From IMG/VR virus record IMGVR_UViG_3300033156_000205, positions 1 through 44,970 of that record: a DNA stretch of 44,970 nt; one strand, 5' to 3'. The position numbers were made by a program, and so were the translations under genes. This document shows, piece by piece, positions 2,684-44,970 of this stretch. Positions within the stretch are counted from its first letter, which is position 1. Every line of letters begins with the position of its first letter. The notes beneath the pieces are model-generated. The model searched no databases. It had not been told where the DNA came from and saw only the letters and a program-made list of their open reading frames with translations. Source of the stretch: a virus.

Positions 2684-3172
2684 TCAGCTACCCGTAGCAT
2701 TGGCCGGCCTTTCTGGCTTCTGAGAGTCGAGAGCGAATGACTCACGCAAAATTGTCAAATCGGTTGAGTTCACAACTATTTCGGGATTTAAGAGGCCGTC
2801 CTCACCAAGCTTTTGTTCTTTGGAGTAGCCCGTCCGGTCGAGTATTTCTGTGGCGGATTTTAGAGAAATTTTTGAGTCGGGCGAGTTCATATGGTAGATG
2901 AGCTTGTCGGCGGCGGCCTTCGCACTTTTTCGGAGAGTTTCTTTGACGGCGTCGAGTTCGCTGGAGATATGCTCGTTCTGGACAGATTCGAGCGAGGCCC
3001 GCCTGATTGCAAATTGATGCTGGAAGGACGGCGAGTTAATTACGATTGAAACTTGGGCCTGAGACATTCCGAGTTCTTTAGATATTTGCTTCGGAGTTAG
3101 GCCGGTTAGGCAGAGGTCGAGAATTCGGTAATGCCGAGGAGTTAGTTTCTTTACTGTTTCGTTGTAAGACAT
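2684..3172 (-). CDS. terS: Putative terminase small subunit (TerS), HTH protein, 162 aa
   Basis: It probably recognises phage DNA and recruits the large terminase for packaging. The start is ATG 3172 (MSYNETVKKL) with an AAAGG site upstream; the frame is open to 3331, but that extension lacks a good site. Residues 8-50 form a LuxR/sigma-4-like helix-turn-helix (LTPRHYRILDLCLTGLTPKQ, then ISKELGMSQAQVSIV). The rest is helical, with a segment of the kind seen in phage small terminases (ATEILDRTGYSKEQK). It is the first gene of the minus-strand late block, on the other side of the fibre genes from TerL. An HTH regulator is the alternative. Confidence 0.65.
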   Translation of the reverse strand: MSYNETVKKLTPRHYRILDLCLTGLTPKQISKELGMSQAQVSIVINSPSFQHQFAIRRASLESVQNEHISSELDAVKETLRKSAKAAADKLIYHMNSPDSKISLKSATEILDRTGYSKEQKLGEDGLLNPEIVVNSTDLTILRESFALDSQKPERPANATGS

Positions 3173-8847: not shown

Positions 8848-9306
8848 ATGTTAGATGACGAAACCGTTCTAAAAAACTGTTACTATTGGGCGAAGCGACT
8901 AGTCTGTAAAGGAATAGACTTCGATGCACTGGTATCTGTCGGCTATATCGTCGGCAAGCCGCTCCGAGATAAAAAGCTTCTAAAAGACTGGCTGCACTAC
9001 TCAATGCTCAAGTTCATCATCACTGAACTTAACAACCGAAGAATGTGCGTTAATTTAGGCGACAACTACGCAGAGAGCATCCGGACAGCATCTGACTCTT
9101 CCAACTACCTAGACCTCTACGAAAGCATCAAGCGAGCCAATCTGTCGAAGCGTGAGCTAGCTGTCCTCCGTGAAACGTTCTTCAAGTTCAAGAACCAGAC
9201 TGAAATTGCAGCTCTACTAAACATAAAACAGCAAACGGTCTCGGTCTATCTTCGGAGAGCTTTAGAAAAAGTTAGGAACGCTTATCTGAAAGGAATTTCA
9301 AAATGA
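8848..9306 (+). CDS. Phage sigma-like factor, 152 aa
   Basis: It probably directs RNA polymerase, or blocks a host sigma. Residues 100-145 are a clear sigma70 region-4-like helix-turn-helix: LSKRELAVLRETF, NQTEIAALLNIKQQTVSVYL, RRALEKVRNAY. Residues 20-65 (FDALVSVGYIVGKPL, then LHYSMLKFIITELNNRR) have the rhythm of a sigma region 2. It is short for a sigma factor and has no region 3. It sits at the start of the recombination/replication genes and precedes the nuclease by 4-nt overlap. It could be the switch to the late block. A plain HTH regulator is the alternative. Confidence 0.75.
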   Translation: MLDDETVLKNCYYWAKRLVCKGIDFDALVSVGYIVGKPLRDKKLLKDWLHYSMLKFIITELNNRRMCVNLGDNYAESIRTASDSSNYLDLYESIKRANLSKRELAVLRETFFKFKNQTEIAALLNIKQQTVSVYLRRALEKVRNAYLKGISK

Positions 9307-11370: not shown

Positions 11371-11799
11371 ATGAGTATTGTGAACATTGACGTAAATGAC
11401 CCAGACCTGCTGAAAGTTCGTAAGTTTGAGCCGGTTCCGGCAGGCAAGTATGTGTGTGAAGTAGAGAACGACCTGACTATTGAGCCTTCAAAGTCATCCA
11501 GCAGTGAAGTGGTTGCCATTGTCCTGCGGATTCTAGACGACGGCGAGTATAAGGGCCGGAAGATTTTCGACAACTTAGTTATAGGAAGTACTCCGGAAGC
11601 AAAAAAGAAGAGTGACTGGAAAATCGCTCAATTTGCACTAGCTTGCGGAGTGTGCACCAAAGAAACCTTGGACAAAATAGACCTGTCTCTGTTCAAAGGC
11701 ACAACTTGCGAAGTCGATGTTGGAGTTAAGTCGTCGACCTATCAAGGCATAACTACAATGAAAAACTTTGTAAAGCAGTATCTATTCGAGGCTGCTTAA
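11371..11799 (+). CDS. DUF669-type ssDNA-binding protein, 142 aa
   Basis: The layout fits DUF669: FEPVPAGKYVCEVEN at the start, an EVVAIVLRILDDGEYKGRKI strand-turn-strand, then FDNLVIGST, KKSDWKIAQFALACG, and an acidic DLSLFKGTTCEVDVG block before FVKQYLF. These proteins act as phage ssDNA-binding proteins next to Sak4. The gene has a GGAG site 7 nt before ATG and ends at 11799, just before dyad copy 3. Confidence 0.8.
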   Translation: MSIVNIDVNDPDLLKVRKFEPVPAGKYVCEVENDLTIEPSKSSSSEVVAIVLRILDDGEYKGRKIFDNLVIGSTPEAKKKSDWKIAQFALACGVCTKETLDKIDLSLFKGTTCEVDVGVKSSTYQGITTMKNFVKQYLFEAA

Positions 11800-11807
11800 A
11801 ACCGCCC

Positions 11808-11830
11808 ACATATCCAAACGGGGGATATGT
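11808..11830. repeat. Dyad copy 3: ACATATCC-N7-GGATATGT
   Basis: Identical arms, extended to 9 bp by flanking C/G; spacer AAACGGG. It sits between the DUF669 gene and a strongly structured element. Confidence 0.9.
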
Positions 11831-11834
11831 GAAA

Positions 11835-11932
11835 GGCACGGAGCTGGAGTGGCTATAAGCAGGCTACGAGCTAACGGGGCCTCGACCTGCACTCGGCACA
11901 AACTCCAGCCCGTGCCGAGGAGTAGGCCCCGT
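11835..11932 (+). ncRNA. Structured element with competing pairings (pseudoknot-capable)
   Basis: Three long complementary sets overlap. GGCACGG-A-GCTGGAGT (11835-11850) is complementary to ACTCCAGCCCGTGCC (11902-11916), a 15-bp helix with one bulge. ACGGGGCC (11874-11881) pairs with GGCCCCGT (11925-11932). CTCGGCAC (11892-11899) pairs with GTGCCGAG (11912-11919), using part of the first helix. So either a nested hairpin forms, whose loop pairs upstream, or an H-type pseudoknot. A terminator follows. It is not a tRNA. The element could be a small RNA or a replication origin. Strand is assumed from the surrounding genes. Confidence 0.6.
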
Positions 11933-11960
11933 TCGTAAGCGTATTCTCTCCTCCTCCTCA

Positions 11961-12008
11961 GGCAGGCCAGTAAGTAAAACGGGCGCTGACGGCTGGCCTG
12001 CCATTTTT
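11961..12008 (+). terminator. Terminator after the structured element
   Basis: GGCAGGCCAG (11961-11970) and CTGGCCTGCC (11993-12002) form a perfect 10-bp stem with a 22-nt loop, followed by ATTTTTAT. It would end the recombination operon, or the structured RNA, before the accessory genes. Confidence 0.75.
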
Positions 12009-12027
12009 ATAAAAGGCAGTAAATGAT

Positions 12028-12249
12028 ATGAGCGAACGAAAATATGAATACTCTTTTTGTCTTTGGCTAGATGAAAAATGGAATTTTCCCAAAGAAGTGT
12101 TTGAGGTTTTTGAATGTCTTAAGAGTCGAATAGCTTTTGTTTGGACACCTGAACATTTTGAGAGAGTGCGAAGTGAATTATCGCACTATGGATTAGTAAT
12201 GCACGAAATATCGAGGCATATTTTTACAAAAGAGGAAATTGTTTTGTAA
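12028..12249 (+). CDS. Hypothetical protein, 73 aa
   Basis: A small acidic frame (MSERKYEYSFCLWLDEKWNF...). No family recognised. Its last codons (EEIVL plus stop) are inside a 19-bp repeat that recurs exactly 300 bp downstream without the rest of the gene. That suggests the adjacent Lar-like cassette was inserted at its 3' end. It follows the terminator at 11961-12008 and lacks a strong ribosome site. Confidence 0.6.
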   Translation: MSERKYEYSFCLWLDEKWNFPKEVFEVFECLKSRIAFVWTPEHFERVRSELSHYGLVMHEISRHIFTKEEIVL

Positions 12250-18136: not shown

Positions 18137-18545
18137 ATATTTTATGAACATAGCAAAAACTTGCTCGACTAAATCTCCTGACTTATCAACTAAGCACGGC
18201 TGTATAGCGGTAAGCAGAGCTGGAAGCATACTATCCACAGGCTACAACGGATTTCCTAGAGGTGTAGATGACACAAAAATGCCAACTACGAGACCCAGAA
18301 AATACATCTACACCGAGCACGCTGAACGAAATTGCATCTACAATGCAGCAAGAATCGGAACGCCTTTAGATGGCTGCATATTCTATGTAACTGGAATATC
18401 GTGTGTGGATTGTATGAGAGCTATGTACCAAGTTGGAGCATCTGAAGTTGTAATGCTGGAAAAAGAGTGCTCATCCACAACTCCAGATTGGTATGAGTTT
18501 ATAAAGTTTATCAATAACTATATGAGGATTAGGTATCTAAAATGA
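18117..18545 (+). CDS. Deoxycytidylate (dCMP) deaminase, 142 aa
   Basis: It converts dCMP to dUMP, feeding thymidylate synthesis. Zinc-site motifs are clear: EHAERN near residue 66 and CVDC in TGISCVDCMRAMYQVG. I choose GTG 18117 because AGGAGG (18105-18110) lies 6 nt upstream; the frame is also open from ATG 18096, but that places the ribosome site inside the gene. It ends in a 4-nt overlap with the ParB-methyltransferase. No thymidylate synthase was found in the window. Confidence 0.85.
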   Translation: MLLTKDRYFMNIAKTCSTKSPDLSTKHGCIAVSRAGSILSTGYNGFPRGVDDTKMPTTRPRKYIYTEHAERNCIYNAARIGTPLDGCIFYVTGISCVDCMRAMYQVGASEVVMLEKECSSTTPDWYEFIKFINNYMRIRYLK

Positions 18546-19858
18546 AAGTAAAAATATCAGACATCAGGCTTGAGAAGAAAGATGCGAACAGTAGACGGGT
18601 ACGTGCTGATTTTGGAGACATATTCAAGCTAGCTGAAAGCATAAAGCAGCATGGGTTGCTACATCCGGTAGTTATAAACGAAGACCCTACAAAAGAAAAG
18701 AAGTATGTTCTTGTAGCAGGCGAGAGAAGAATTAGAGCTTGTCTGTTTAATGGATGGTCGGAGATACCAGCTACTCTATTTTCTGATATGGACTCGCTTG
18801 ACAGAAAAATCTGCGAGCTTGAGGAAAATACTATCAGGCTGGATTTGGACTGGCATGAGCAGATAGAAGCCCTTCGGCAACTAGATGAGCTGAAAAGGAA
18901 AAAATATGGAAGCGGAACACGCAGCAGGCAGAGTACTGGCTGGACTCTCCAAGACACTGCTGACACTGTAGGAATATCTAAAAGCTTGGCCGGTCGAGAT
19001 ATTAAGCTTGCAAGGGATTTGCTGGAGAGGCCGGATTTGAGAAAGAAGACGAGAAAGCTTCCGAAGCACGCTGCTGCCAAAATTGTAGAGCAGACGTTAA
19101 AAGAAGAAGAGCTTAAGAGGCAGATAGAGATGAACAAGCTAACTGTATCCTCCACGCTGCTGCACGGAAGTTGTGTAGACTTAATAGACGATTTGGAAGA
19201 TGAGAGCATTGATTTGTGGCTAACTGACCCGCCCTTTGGAAGTGCAAACGTTGTAAAGCTCAGCGGAGCTAATTCACCGTCTGGTGGTATGCCAACATAT
19301 AATCTTACTTCTACCAACGTTGGAAGTGATGAGTATATGCAGCCAATATACGAAGCTCTTATTCCGAAAGTTTATAGAAAACTGAAGCCTGGAGCGCACA
19401 TATATGTATTCTTCGGACATTCTTGGTACTGCAGACTGTATAAGATGCTGACTGAGGCGGGGTTTGAAGTTGACGAGCAACCACTTATTTGGTATAAAGA
19501 GAGACCGTCCGTGATGGCCAAAGACATGCATTATATGTCATCTTACGAAGCAGTGTTCTTCGGACACAAGCCTCCAGTTGGTAGAATACTCTCTAAACCT
19601 CTTCCAAATGTATTATCTGTTTCAGCAATTCATCCTAAGAAGAAGACCCATCCGCTTCAAAGACCGCACGAGCTGCTGAAGATATTCATTGAAAACAGCT
19701 CGAGTGTTGGAGAAACTGTGTTAGATACATTTGCAGGAAGCGCCTCGACGCTTGTATCTGCAAGAAAGCTGCAGCGAAACGCTATCGGTTTTGAAGTTGA
19801 CGAAGGAAATTATTTGAGGGCACAGGAGTTTATGGCTAAGGAAATGAAAGGAGTGTAG
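18542..19858 (+). CDS. ParB/Srx-like domain fused to DNA methyltransferase, 438 aa
   Basis: Residues 1-110 form a ParB-type N-terminal domain ([18 protein letters not shown], then [15 protein letters not shown]). A linker region includes an HTH-like segment ([19 protein letters not shown]). Residues 215-438 are a class-I methyltransferase: TDPPFG near 229 is motif IV, and a later [13 protein letters not shown] near 395 is motif I with the N6/N4 amino-methyltransferase order (IV before I, beta type). It would methylate adenine or cytosine amino groups in phage DNA; the ParB-like part may read DNA sequence. Such fusions are known in phages. It overlaps the deaminase gene by 4 nt. Confidence 0.85.
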
Positions 19859-20652: not shown

Positions 20653-23058
20653 ATGCTTGTTGAAGATATAGGTCCTGCTGATGCTAAAATAATGATAGTC
20701 GGCGAAGCTCCAGGAAAAACAGAAGAGGAAACGGGTATGCCATTTACAGGCTCAAGCGGAAAGCTCCTACGCCAGATGCTGCAGCACTCAGGAATAGACT
20801 ATAGCAGTTGCTACGTAACCAACGTTTCTCCGATGCGGCCTCCAGGAAACAAGTTTGAGTACTTCTATAACAAAAAGTCTCGAAATGAGCCTTCAGATAG
20901 ACTCTTGTATTGGCATAGCGTGCTTAGAGACAAAATAGAAAAGATAAGACCGAATGTTGTAATAGCACTTGGAGCAGAAGCGCTCAGAGCTATTACCAAC
21001 AGAAGAGGCATAAAGAACTGGAGAGGCACAGTACTAACATATAAAGATGTTAAGGTCATAGCTACATACCACCCAGCTGCTGTCATTAGACAGTACGATT
21101 TCCATCCGATAGTCGAAATGGATTTGGCTAAGGCTTTAAGAGAAAGCAAGTTTCGGGAACTCAAATACGATGAATGTAGCATAATAACTAAACCGACCTT
21201 GAGGCAAACTTTAGATTGGCTAAACGAATGCAGTAGGTATCCTCGAGTCGGCTGGGATATAGAAACTGTAGGGAGGCACGTTAGGTGCATCGGCATAGCT
21301 CGGGGCTCGGCGCTTAAGCCAGAAGCTTTGGTAGTTCCATTCATAAAGTTTCCGTCTACTGATATGGTTATGCCAGGACAAAAGAACATAATTAGTGTAG
21401 GCAATGTATCGTATGAGGCGTCTTCTTATTGGAACTCTCACGACGAGCTACTGGTATTGGATGCTATTGCTAAAGTGATGGAAGGAAGGACAATCCAGAA
21501 GGTTGGGCATAACAGCATAGCTTTTGACGCATCTGTTATGAAGAGTGAGTTTAAGATGGAAGTCAACAACCATATTATGGATACAATGCACGCATTCCAT
21601 CTGCTTTACTCAGAGCTTCATATGGGACTGAAGTTTTTAGTTACAATACTCACTAATTATCCAAACTATTGGGCAGATAGACAGAGCGACAACGATGAGA
21701 GTGAATGGCACTACAACGGAATGGATGCTATCGCTACGCTGGTTATATCATACAAGCTGGAAACTGAGCTGCATAATGCTGGCATGATGAACTTATACAA
21801 GCACATAAATGATTTAGCGATTGCTCTAACAAGAATTCAAGAGAGAGGAATTTGTATAGATGATGATGCTAGAAAGGCTATGTTGGAGGAGCAAAATGTC
21901 AAGCTAGACAAAATCCTGAAGGACATATCCAATGTTGCTGGAGGCAGCTTCAATCCGAATAGCCCGAAGCAAGTCAAAGAGTTGTTGTATGATAAGCTAA
22001 AGTTTCCAATAGTTTATAAAGATGGAAAGGAGACAACTGGCGAAGCTGCGCTTAAGAAGTTAGCTAAAAGATATCCGAAAGAGAGAGTTCTTAATGATAT
22101 AGTAGCGTATAGGAAGACTAGCAAGCTAATAAATACATTTTTAGATATGAATCTTGATGCTGATGGAAAAATGAGAACAAGTTACAACGCATCTGGCACA
22201 AAAAGCGGAAGGATTAGCTCATCAAAAACGATATGGAAGACCGGAATGAACTTGCAGAATATACCTGTTGGAAAGGCAAAAGGTGTAGAGAGCATTCGGC
22301 ACCTGTTCATTCCATCTAAAGGAAAAATCTTTGTTAAAGCCGATTTAGTTCAGGCTGAAGCTCTTGTTGTGGCAGAGATACTATCAAGACACGGAGACCC
22401 TACATTGGCGGAGCTGCATAAAAACAAAGACTTCGATGTTCACAGATGGATGGCATCTCACATCTTTAACAAGCCTGAGTCTGAAGTAACAAAGCACGAA
22501 AGGAACATAGGCAAACTCGCTAATCACTCTGGAAACTATGGAGCCGGCCCTAAGGTGCTTACAGACAAAGCAGCTAAAGAGGATATAGAGGGAATAGATT
22601 ATCGAATGGCTAAAAGAATTTTAGAAGTAAGGCACCGAGCTATTCCAGGGCTAAAAAAGTGGTGGAGATATGTAGAGAGGAAGGTGCGAGAAACTAGAAC
22701 TCTAACGACTTGTTTTGGTAGAAGAAGGATATTTTTTGGTAGAATGGACGAGTCTACATTTAGAGATGCATACTCATTCGAGCCTCAGTCTGTTGTCGGC
22801 GAAGTTACTAATAGGATTTTAACTAAGATAGAACTCAATCCAAACAGCAAGCTGACGTTGTTGCTGCAGGTTCACGATGAGATAGATGGAGAATGCTACG
22901 AAAGGGATTTAGATGAAGTAGTTAAAGAGATAAAAGCGGCTGCTACGGTTCCAATTTACATAAACGAAAGTCCTTTAATAATTCCAGTTGATATTGAAGT
23001 AGGAAAAAATTGGGGAGACTTAGTGTCTTATAAGGAGTATAGAAATGGAAAAAGATAA
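20653..23058 (+). CDS. UDG-like domain fused to family A DNA polymerase, 801 aa
   Basis: Residues 1-165 match family-4 uracil-DNA glycosylases (GEAPGKTEEETGMPFTGSSG, YVTNVSPMRPPGN, YHPAAV). The following 3'-5' exonuclease is intact in motifs: DIE at 202-204, a central NSIAFD motif and a YNGMDA motif. The polymerase motifs are A at D564 (ADLVQAEAL, with E569), B at R617-K621-H625-Y629, and C at VHDE (740-743). Motif B has His where E. coli Pol I has Phe762. It would replicate phage DNA, and the UDG part may act on uracil. It overlaps the next gene by 14 nt. Confidence 0.9.
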   Translation: MLVEDIGPADAKIMIVGEAPGKTEEETGMPFTGSSGKLLRQMLQHSGIDYSSCYVTNVSPMRPPGNKFEYFYNKKSRNEPSDRLLYWHSVLRDKIEKIRPNVVIALGAEALRAITNRRGIKNWRGTVLTYKDVKVIATYHPAAVIRQYDFHPIVEMDLAKALRESKFRELKYDECSIITKPTLRQTLDWLNECSRYPRVGWDIETVGRHVRCIGIARGSALKPEALVVPFIKFPSTDMVMPGQKNIISVGNVSYEASSYWNSHDELLVLDAIAKVMEGRTIQKVGHNSIAFDASVMKSEFKMEVNNHIMDTMHAFHLLYSELHMGLKFLVTILTNYPNYWADRQSDNDESEWHYNGMDAIATLVISYKLETELHNAGMMNLYKHINDLAIALTRIQERGICIDDDARKAMLEEQNVKLDKILKDISNVAGGSFNPNSPKQVKELLYDKLKFPIVYKDGKETTGEAALKKLAKRYPKERVLNDIVAYRKTSKLINTFLDMNLDADGKMRTSYNASGTKSGRISSSKTIWKTGMNLQNIPVGKAKGVESIRHLFIPSKGKIFVKADLVQAEALVVAEILSRHGDPTLAELHKNKDFDVHRWMASHIFNKPESEVTKHERNIGKLANHSGNYGAGPKVLTDKAAKEDIEGIDYRMAKRILEVRHRAIPGLKKWWRYVERKVRETRTLTTCFGRRRIFFGRMDESTFRDAYSFEPQSVVGEVTNRILTKIELNPNSKLTLLLQVHDEIDGECYERDLDEVVKEIKAAATVPIYINESPLIIPVDIEVGKNWGDLVSYKEYRNGKR

Positions 23059-37738: not shown

Positions 37739-38254
37739 TTATAGGCATTTTACATATACATTCTTAGCATATGTAGCTCCTGTAGCATCAGAGCATGCCT
37801 CCATTGCTTGGAATGTAAACATTCTTTTGGGAGCAGTCCCAACAGCAGTAGCTCTTGTTAGAGTGCTAGCACCGTTAGCAGCTGTAAGTTCATCTCCGAT
37901 AGCAACAGCAGTTCCGCTAACTCCAAGTACTCTAGCATCCAAGTGGACTCCGTAAACTTGTATCCACCCGTAACATACGCCTCCAGACGCTGCAATCGCA
38001 GTCATTGCAATTCCTGCTTGGAACATCAAGTCAGCAGTAACAGGCCCGTTTACTGATTTGAAAATCTCCCCAGTTCCATCAGCATTATCTGCATCGTAAC
38101 ACACTGGCTGGTGCTGCACGATAGCAGTAGCACTCCTGTTCTTTACCCATCTGTATACATTCCCGTCATACTCCCTCCTGAGAGTACCAACACCTTCAAC
38201 ATCGGTGCTCTCAACTGAAGTAAGACCAGTCTGAAACAAAATCTTCTGAGCCAT
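37739..38254 (-). CDS. Probable capsid decoration protein, 171 aa
   Basis: A beta-rich, Ala/Gly/Thr-rich protein directly downstream of the major capsid gene (VYRWVKNRSATAIVQHQPVC, GVSGTAVAIGDELTAANGAS). Such small proteins next to the capsid are often head decorations. The phrase AVAIGDELTAANGAS is typical of phage structural beta proteins. No named family. Confidence 0.65.
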   Translation of the reverse strand: MAQKILFQTGLTSVESTDVEGVGTLRREYDGNVYRWVKNRSATAIVQHQPVCYDADNADGTGEIFKSVNGPVTADLMFQAGIAMTAIAASGGVCYGWIQVYGVHLDARVLGVSGTAVAIGDELTAANGASTLTRATAVGTAPKRMFTFQAMEACSDATGATYAKNVYVKCL

Positions 38255-38293
38255 AATTTAATCTCCTTAGATTAAAGTAGTTAACAATTTCTA

Positions 38294-38316
38294 ACATATC
38301 CATATTGGGGATATGT
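38294..38316. repeat. Dyad copy 5: ACATATCC-N7-GGATATGT
   Basis: Identical core arms, extended to 10 bp by TA/TA (TAACATATCC/GGATATGTTA); spacer ATATTGG. It lies between the capsid gene and the decoration gene, and its last base is in the capsid stop codon. Confidence 0.9.
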
Positions 38317-39374
38317 TATGAAGAATACTCACAGGCGGCGTGCCGTCTGGGCTGGTCAGTTATAAGACCAGTCGTCATGCAGGCAATATAAGTTACCCGC
38401 TCAAGCTGGTTCGCAGTTTCCTTCCAGTTAGTCATCGCAAACCACATGTCTGGGTCATATACAAATTCAATGTGGTTGAGATTGAGGAAGAACAGATGCT
38501 TAGTGTCCGCAAGTTTAGATGAGTACGTCATAGTTGCACCTTTGAAGGTCATAGTTACAAAACCTAAGTCTGCCGCCTTATTGTTGAAAGCACTCCTTAC
38601 AATCTGCTGCTTGTCTCCAACCTCATCTTCATACGCCTCATACAAATCCTGGTCCATAATGATGAAGTTAGGAGCCTCTTGGTTGGCATTTACAACATTA
38701 AATATATGCCTCATGTCTGAAACTAAACCCATAGAATAAGGCGAGTTTAGATTAAGAAGCCTGTTAGATATGCTCTCTGTTTGGTCGTCAGCAGCTGCAA
38801 AGTTTCTCCACCAGGTATTAGTTCTGCTAATGTTGCCGTTAGAAGAACCCGTTGCATAAGTTCCGCTCGCACTGCCAGAACCCACTGCACTCTCAGCAGT
38901 AACCTGAGGAGCTATATCATAAATGCCATTAAAGTGATAAGGAGCAGTAGTATAAGCACCCCACCTAAACAAATCCCTTTCCATGTCAGCTGCTAAAGCA
39001 TCCCTTGCAGCCGAAAGGCGTCTAGTCAAATAATCCTTAATCTTAAACTTGCCAGCATTCTTGCTATCATCGATGAGAGAACGATTAACATCCACCAAGA
39101 AGTATCTCCAATCCCATCGAGCAAGCGTATCGAGTTTCTTAACTTCCTGGTCAAGAACTGAACCCTCTTGAAACGCTTGAGTACTTTTCGTCCCATATCC
39201 AATCGTTCTGGTAACATATTCCCCACCGACCTGAGGTGTCATACAACCGTGCTCTTTCAGAGCTAATGAGAATACATTTGACTCAAGCACATTATCAACA
39301 ACCTGTGGACGGATTTCGTACCAAGTATTTACAAAATCATCGTCCAAAGTTCTAGTAAGAGTAGGAAGAGCCAT
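38316..39374 (-). CDS. Major capsid protein, 352 aa
   Basis: It forms the head shell. The start (MALPTLTRTLDDDFVNTWYE), the block RWDWRYFLVDVNRSLIDDSK, the following YLTRRLSAARDALAADMERD and the later W-rich WWRNFAAADD and VYDPDMWFAMTNWK segments are of HK97-fold capsid type known from phages. It follows scaffold with a gap of 116 bp containing a candidate promoter, and precedes the decoration protein. The length is normal for capsids without a fused protease or scaffold. Confidence 0.85.
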   Translation of the reverse strand: MALPTLTRTLDDDFVNTWYEIRPQVVDNVLESNVFSLALKEHGCMTPQVGGEYVTRTIGYGTKSTQAFQEGSVLDQEVKKLDTLARWDWRYFLVDVNRSLIDDSKNAGKFKIKDYLTRRLSAARDALAADMERDLFRWGAYTTAPYHFNGIYDIAPQVTAESAVGSGSASGTYATGSSNGNISRTNTWWRNFAAADDQTESISNRLLNLNSPYSMGLVSDMRHIFNVVNANQEAPNFIIMDQDLYEAYEDEVGDKQQIVRSAFNNKAADLGFVTMTFKGATMTYSSKLADTKHLFFLNLNHIEFVYDPDMWFAMTNWKETANQLERVTYIACMTTGLITDQPRRHAACEYSS

Positions 39375-44738: not shown

Positions 44739-44970
44739 TCAGTTCTTCTTTTCCAAAACTGCTATTCGTGCCTTTAATTCATTTATCTGGTTCTGCTGTT
44801 CTTTTATGGCCTCGGTTAGTAAAGTTACCATTGCACCCAAATCTCTGGCCGGAACGGCTACTGGTTCAGTCTCATCTACCTCGATAGGATTTTCCTCGTC
44901 AGGATTTATGACTATTTTCTTTCCTGTTGGCCGTTGCTCTATCGCTGTTCTTCGTGCGAATTCTGGCAGA
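44739..44970 (-). CDS. C-terminal end of the large tail fibre (other part at 1-2252)
   Basis: This open frame without a start continues the gene from position 1 across the junction. Bases 44857-44970 repeat 1-114, so only 44739-44856 are new: residues 751-789. They encode PARDLGAMVTLLTEAIKEQQ, then NQINELKARIAVLEKKN and TGA. The short final coiled coil is what trimeric phage fibres often end with. Its presence proves the two window ends belong together. Confidence 0.9.
   Translation of the reverse strand, partial: LPEFARRTAIEQRPTGKKIVINPDEENPIEVDETEPVAVPARDLGAMVTLLTEAIKEQQNQINELKARIAVLEKKN
44857..44970. repeat. Right copy of the 114-bp terminal overlap
   Basis: Identical to 1-114. Remove one copy to obtain the unique genome of 44,856 bases. 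Confidence 0.95.

Follow-up and report, generated by a model that had tools for sequence, protein, structure and literature searches.

The locus analysed here raises the question of what a long, strongly self-complementary gap does in the genome of an uncultivated phage, and whether it acts as DNA or as RNA. The window is the whole IMG/VR phage record (G000, 44,970 bp), in which the gap at 11800–12027 sits between the gene for a DUF669 single-strand DNA-binding protein (SSB) and a 73-aa ORF of no assigned function at 12028. A direct repeat of 114 bp is found at both ends of the record (1–114 and 44857–44970); contig L007 runs across the end junction, so the record very probably represents a whole genome read as a circle. 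L007 is otherwise almost identical to G000, lacking an 80-bp stretch (38240–38319, with a dyad behind the major head gene) and also about 70 bp near 1107–1175. A different phage of the same length as the window, L163 (IMGVR_UViG_3300033141_001796, 44970 bp), has a small terminase subunit (terS) 40% identical to that of G000 and shares no sampled 30-mers with it in the part compared. Elsewhere, G000 encodes a sigma-70 region-4-like protein (8848–9306; conserved, 60% in the sister phage G003), a DNA methyltransferase fused to a ParB-like domain (18542–19858) and a protein of DNA polymerase I type whose N-terminal domain belongs to the uracil-DNA-glycosylase superfamily (20653–23058; Pfam UDG 6–148, DNA_pol_A 408–789).

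Structure of the gap behind the SSB gene

The first-pass annotation had described competing pairings in this gap. All the segments it named are present, and the gap folds with a minimum free energy of −94.9 kcal/mol (z −4.8), with none of 200 shuffles as stable. Two further helices, P2 and P3, lie inside P1, and the 8-bp pairing 11874–11881/11925–11932 is present as annotated but lies inside a longer 10-bp helix, P5. The features of the locus, all on the plus strand, are:

11371–11799, plus strand: DUF669 SSB gene, directly upstream of the RNA element
11808–11830, plus strand: dyad ACATATCC-N7-GGATATGT, operator-like, outside the RNA fold
11835–11841 and 11843–11850 with 11902–11916, plus strand: P1, 15 bp with a bulge at A11842; its lowest 5 bp overlap the 3′ strand of P4
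11860–11863 (CAGG) with 11886–11889 (CCTG), plus strand: P2, from structural descriptor scans and covariation
11867–11870 (CGAG) with 11881–11884 (CTCG), plus strand: P3, from structural descriptor scans and covariation
11871–11880, plus strand: apical loop L3, CTAACGGGGC
11892–11899 (internal-loop strand CTCGGCAC) with 11912–11919 (GTGCCGAG), plus strand: P4, 8 bp
11873–11882 (L3 strand AACGGGGCCT) with 11924–11933 (AGGCCCCGTT), plus strand: P5, a pseudoknot of 10 bp
11920–11923, plus strand: P4–P5 linker GAGT, 4 nt
11961–11970 with 11993–12002, plus strand: stem of an intrinsic terminator, T-run at 12004–12008

P4 and P5 jointly make 18 bp; when the stretch downstream was dinucleotide-shuffled 2000 times, no shuffle reached this value. 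In this copy the P1 set and the P4/P5 set have seven bases in common, because GTGCC is used by both lower P1 and P4; P1 and P4 cannot both form fully here since no linker separates them. Just 5′ of the terminator, TTCTCTCCTCCTCCTC (11944–11959) is complementary to Shine-Dalgarno sequences. The anti-Shine-Dalgarno-like CCTCCTCCTC (11950–11959), considered for a trans-acting small RNA, was not seen in the other copies described below.

No Rfam 15 family matches anywhere in the window at gathering score, matches at the elements and at the relatives' loci are at chance level only, and ARAGORN found 0 tRNA or tmRNA genes, in line with the earlier failure to recognise a tRNA or ribozyme here. No description of such RNAs was found in the open-access literature, of which coverage was incomplete. 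The family set out below is previously undescribed and without an Rfam entry.

A second copy and its relatives at the terS end

Relatives were found via the large terminase (55–75% identity). In G003 (a 45,961-bp contig), the DUF669 protein is 66% identical to that of G000, and its gene is followed by a dyad and then by a hairpin that shares its core (CAGGCT..ACGGG..ACCTG.ACTC) with the G000 element but has a different P1. A survey of all dyads revealed a second element in both phages, this one where terS ends and on the minus strand, giving one coding-strand copy per opposed operon in G000 and G003. The second copy of G000 is laid out as follows:

2684–3172, minus strand: gene for the small terminase subunit, terS (phrog_2538); P3 of the second RNA copy contains its stop codon
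2713–2576, minus strand: second RNA copy, better conserved, overlapping the terS end
2713–2703 with 2656–2646, minus strand: P1
2694–2691 with 2669–2666, minus strand: P2
2687–2683 with 2674–2670, minus strand: P3
2664–2656 with 2594–2586, minus strand: P4, followed by the linker GAAA
2680–2675 with 2581–2576, minus strand: P5

Between the core of this terS-end element and that of the SSB-locus copy of G003, 26 of 64 alignment columns are invariant, and a purely structural descriptor gave these two copies the top scores on their strands in both phages. CM R1, made from the two G003 copies and the second G000 copy, recovers those three and misses the main G000 copy, so homology is not carried by sequence alone. 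Ribosomal frameshifting or read-through at the terS stop was rejected, as the position of the stop varies relative to the fold.

The same P1–P5 plan, in almost unrelated sequence, lies behind terS in G000, G003, L018, L021 and L036; phrog_2538 terS is conserved in L018, L036, L021 and L023. Full P1–P5 is found in six elements from five phages, and the SSB-locus copy of G003 has P1–P3 only. The gene upstream is constantly terS, whereas downstream lies a tail-like ORF (G000, G003, L018), a small ORF (L021) or terL (L036). In G000, G003 and L036 the last part of terS overlaps with the element, whose start lies 37 nt behind the gene in L018; in L021 the distance is about 375 nt.

In the other phages covered, no element was found. 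None was seen after terS in the more distant relatives G039 and G005, and the structural descriptor gave nothing above background in G039, G005, G006, G007 and G008. The terS–terL gaps of L023, L025–L028, L033, L034, L043 and L055, folded and judged by eye, gave no such element. Searching with blastn for the gap in a phage collection of named phages gave no match, single-sequence DUF669 and Sak4 searches of viral contigs gave no close relative with the element (L003 has Sak4-DUF669 and lacks it), and core sequence-pattern scans returned the same phages only, plus unrelated matches without a P1 stem.

The constant terS link in the five element-bearing phages, together with the compact tertiary fold and the terminator behind the main copy, could suit a free-standing non-coding RNA cut from the mRNA, such as a terminase packaging RNA with intramolecular or intermolecular loop pairing. 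The element resembles the pRNA of phi29 in being a structured RNA of phages that has loop pairings, in this case tied to a terminase gene. It appears to differ from pRNA in fold and has no Rfam match in the window; P4 and P5 are long helices formed in cis with full complementarity, neither processing sites nor a promoter of its own were seen, and another copy lies in the replication region. We consider a free RNA unlikely. GOLLD and ROOL are likewise structured non-coding RNAs found in phages, but much larger, and there is no match to their Rfam models.

Covariation and the conserved fold

In every full copy P1 (11–15 bp) is followed by P2 and P3, P4 (7–10 bp) pairs with a strand downstream of P1, and P5 (6–10 bp) involves the apical loop. 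The P4–P5 linkers range from 4 to 9 nt (GAAA, GAACAAA, GAGT in the main copy and 9 nt in L036), and the linker forms GGAACAAA, GGAAA and GGAGT accompany P1–P5 in the five phages. The first-pass annotation had named covariation in relatives as the check for an RNA, and the pairings do covary. In a pair table by helix, whose helices were selected because they pair, 190 of 190 chosen cells are canonical and all 29 positions have at least two pair types, with six G-U cells and no A-C cells. The stem sequence of P1 is wholly different yet paired in six other copies.

Because the helices of the table were picked for pairing, independent weight falls on the P4+P5 shuffles and the descriptor scan. P4 and P5 together make 14–18 bp in the six elements, matched by 0–2 of 2000 dinucleotide shuffles per element; the exception is the SSB-locus copy of G003, in which P4/P5 is not significant (39 of 2000). 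A structural descriptor run over both strands of 473 kb placed the family elements at the top with scores of 40 to 34, the next score being 31, while ten shuffles of an almost identical set peaked at 29–34. The main copy, for which the descriptor counted only 8 bp of the 15-bp P1, ties with the best shuffle; the support for this copy comes from synteny with G003, the shared core and the P4+P5 shuffle test.

Since the letters have changed almost completely while pairing is preserved, the element is a real functional RNA, one of the readings that the first-pass annotation had offered, and the presence of G-U and absence of A-C identify the coding-strand RNA as the selected molecule. It is highly likely that 11835–11933 belongs to this conserved structured RNA family.

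The same observations weigh on a DNA element, be it a replication origin, a pac site or a recombination site. The inverted repeats adjoin a dyad occurring five times per genome, and pac sites are often in or near terS. Conservation of pairing rather than of sequence, with G-U on the side of the coding-strand RNA and A-C never replacing it, makes any such reading highly improbable. The replication origin offered earlier finds no support in this pattern, nor in the other family members, which adjoin terS.

With whole folds evaluated, the two pairing sets share 0–1 bases in the terS copies of G000, G003, L018 and L021; one base is shared in L036, whose P1–P3 string was not scorable. Both sets can thus coexist there as a double pseudoknot. 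The alternative folds proposed earlier describe the main copy, with its seven shared bases, but not the terS copies; what the family conserves is a pseudoknot, not a switch.

Such a topology at an intercistronic site fits small ribozymes in general, and a self-cleaving ribozyme might separate the terS (or SSB) mRNA from the downstream message. The HDV-like, pistol and twister ribozymes share the compact arrangement of nested and crossing helices; the family differs from them in helix order, has no Rfam match and has few loop positions alike between copies, unlike a catalytic core. We regard a ribozyme as very unlikely.

Terminator and dyad repeats

The terminator behind the main copy starts 28 nt downstream of it and is among the few strong ones in the G000 genome (11961–12002). 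Its annotated 10-bp stem is present, although our scan counts 11 bp. The SSB-locus copy of G003 runs into a T-rich stretch only, and the other copies are without a terminator, so the description of an element with its own terminator applies to the main copy but not to the rest. The terminator is a local feature, outside the conserved RNA family. A terminator or T-rich end behind the SSB-locus copies of both G000 and G003 suggests that a transcription unit ends at the SSB locus. The terminator loop AAAACGGGCGCTGACGG (11976–11992) resembles the element core ACGGGCAGCTGA, and is perhaps a decayed third copy.

A strong terminator directly behind the main copy, and one coding-strand copy per opposed operon, could also point to a processive antiterminator, in which nascent RNA would bind the polymerase and carry it through a long operon, here past the terminator. 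HK022 put likewise comes as a related pair, with one member on each early transcript (PMC9378689), in opposed phage operons and on the coding strand, as a cis RNA proposed to control long operons. The put RNA is about 70 nt in two stem-loops near early promoters (PMC9378689), a layout the family does not show, its members consisting instead of a single long hairpin and a strand further downstream, and lying behind the terS and SSB genes. Sequence is not conserved, one copy comes after the first late gene, terS, and the late operon is almost without intrinsic terminators to overcome, which weakens antitermination there. Antitermination of the put kind seems unlikely.

The dyad at the start of the gap, also noted in the first pass, is real but independent of the RNA. 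CATATCC-N7-GGATATG has five exact copies in G000 (2622, 4859, 11809, 23288 and 38295), a count reached in none of 100 shuffles. Four of these positions are kept in G003 (after terS, before the SSB-locus copy, before primase and after the major head gene), where the homologous sites have changed together and mostly read CATATTC/GAATATG. G039 (TTGTTCA palindromes) and the contig of L023 have their own repeated palindromes instead. The dyads look like a phage-specific operator set co-evolving with its binding factor.

A possible cis-acting element of the mRNA

The best overall explanation, which we hold at somewhat below even weight, is a double-pseudoknot RNA serving as a cis mRNA element behind terS and SSB. 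Pairings, covariation, coding strand and synteny are observed; a cis role on the carrying mRNA is a tentative inference. The P1–P2–P3 hairpin would fold first, and the strand transcribed next would then pair with the internal loop (P4) and the apical loop (P5) to give the double pseudoknot. Placed after terS in polycistronic phage mRNA, and in G000 also just behind the SSB gene, where 11835–11933 would be a paralogous copy, the element would most likely act as a compact barrier where the upstream cistron ends (3′), fixing where decay, processing or transcript ends stop. Expression of terS (or SSB) may thereby be separated from that of the genes that follow. With P1 and P4 competing and a terminator next to it, the main copy is probably where the SSB transcription unit ends.

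Counting for this explanation, besides the P1–P5 plan in five phages and the covariation, shuffle and descriptor results, are the constant upstream terS against a variable downstream gene, and the terminator or T-rich end at the SSB locus in both phages. Counting against it are P4/P5 of the G003 SSB-locus copy, the distance in L021, the lack of an element in G039 and G005, and the choice of helices in the pair table. The T4 gene 32 mRNA also carries a pseudoknot in an SSB gene's message; that one lies in the 5′ leader, whereas here the pseudoknot is 3′ of SSB and the family is mainly found beside terS.

A more far-reaching possibility, which we regard as doubtful, is a new functional class, in which a double-pseudoknot RNA from the 3′ end of terS would serve terminase as a cofactor or bind the polymerase as an antiterminator, a paralogue having been taken into the replication operon. 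Reading competing complements in a single genome can reveal a real pseudoknot, here an RNA family without an Rfam entry, showing strong covariation across an uncultivated phage clade and fixed beside a packaging gene. If the RNA controls late-gene expression or packaging, it would offer a defined, mutable part to test.
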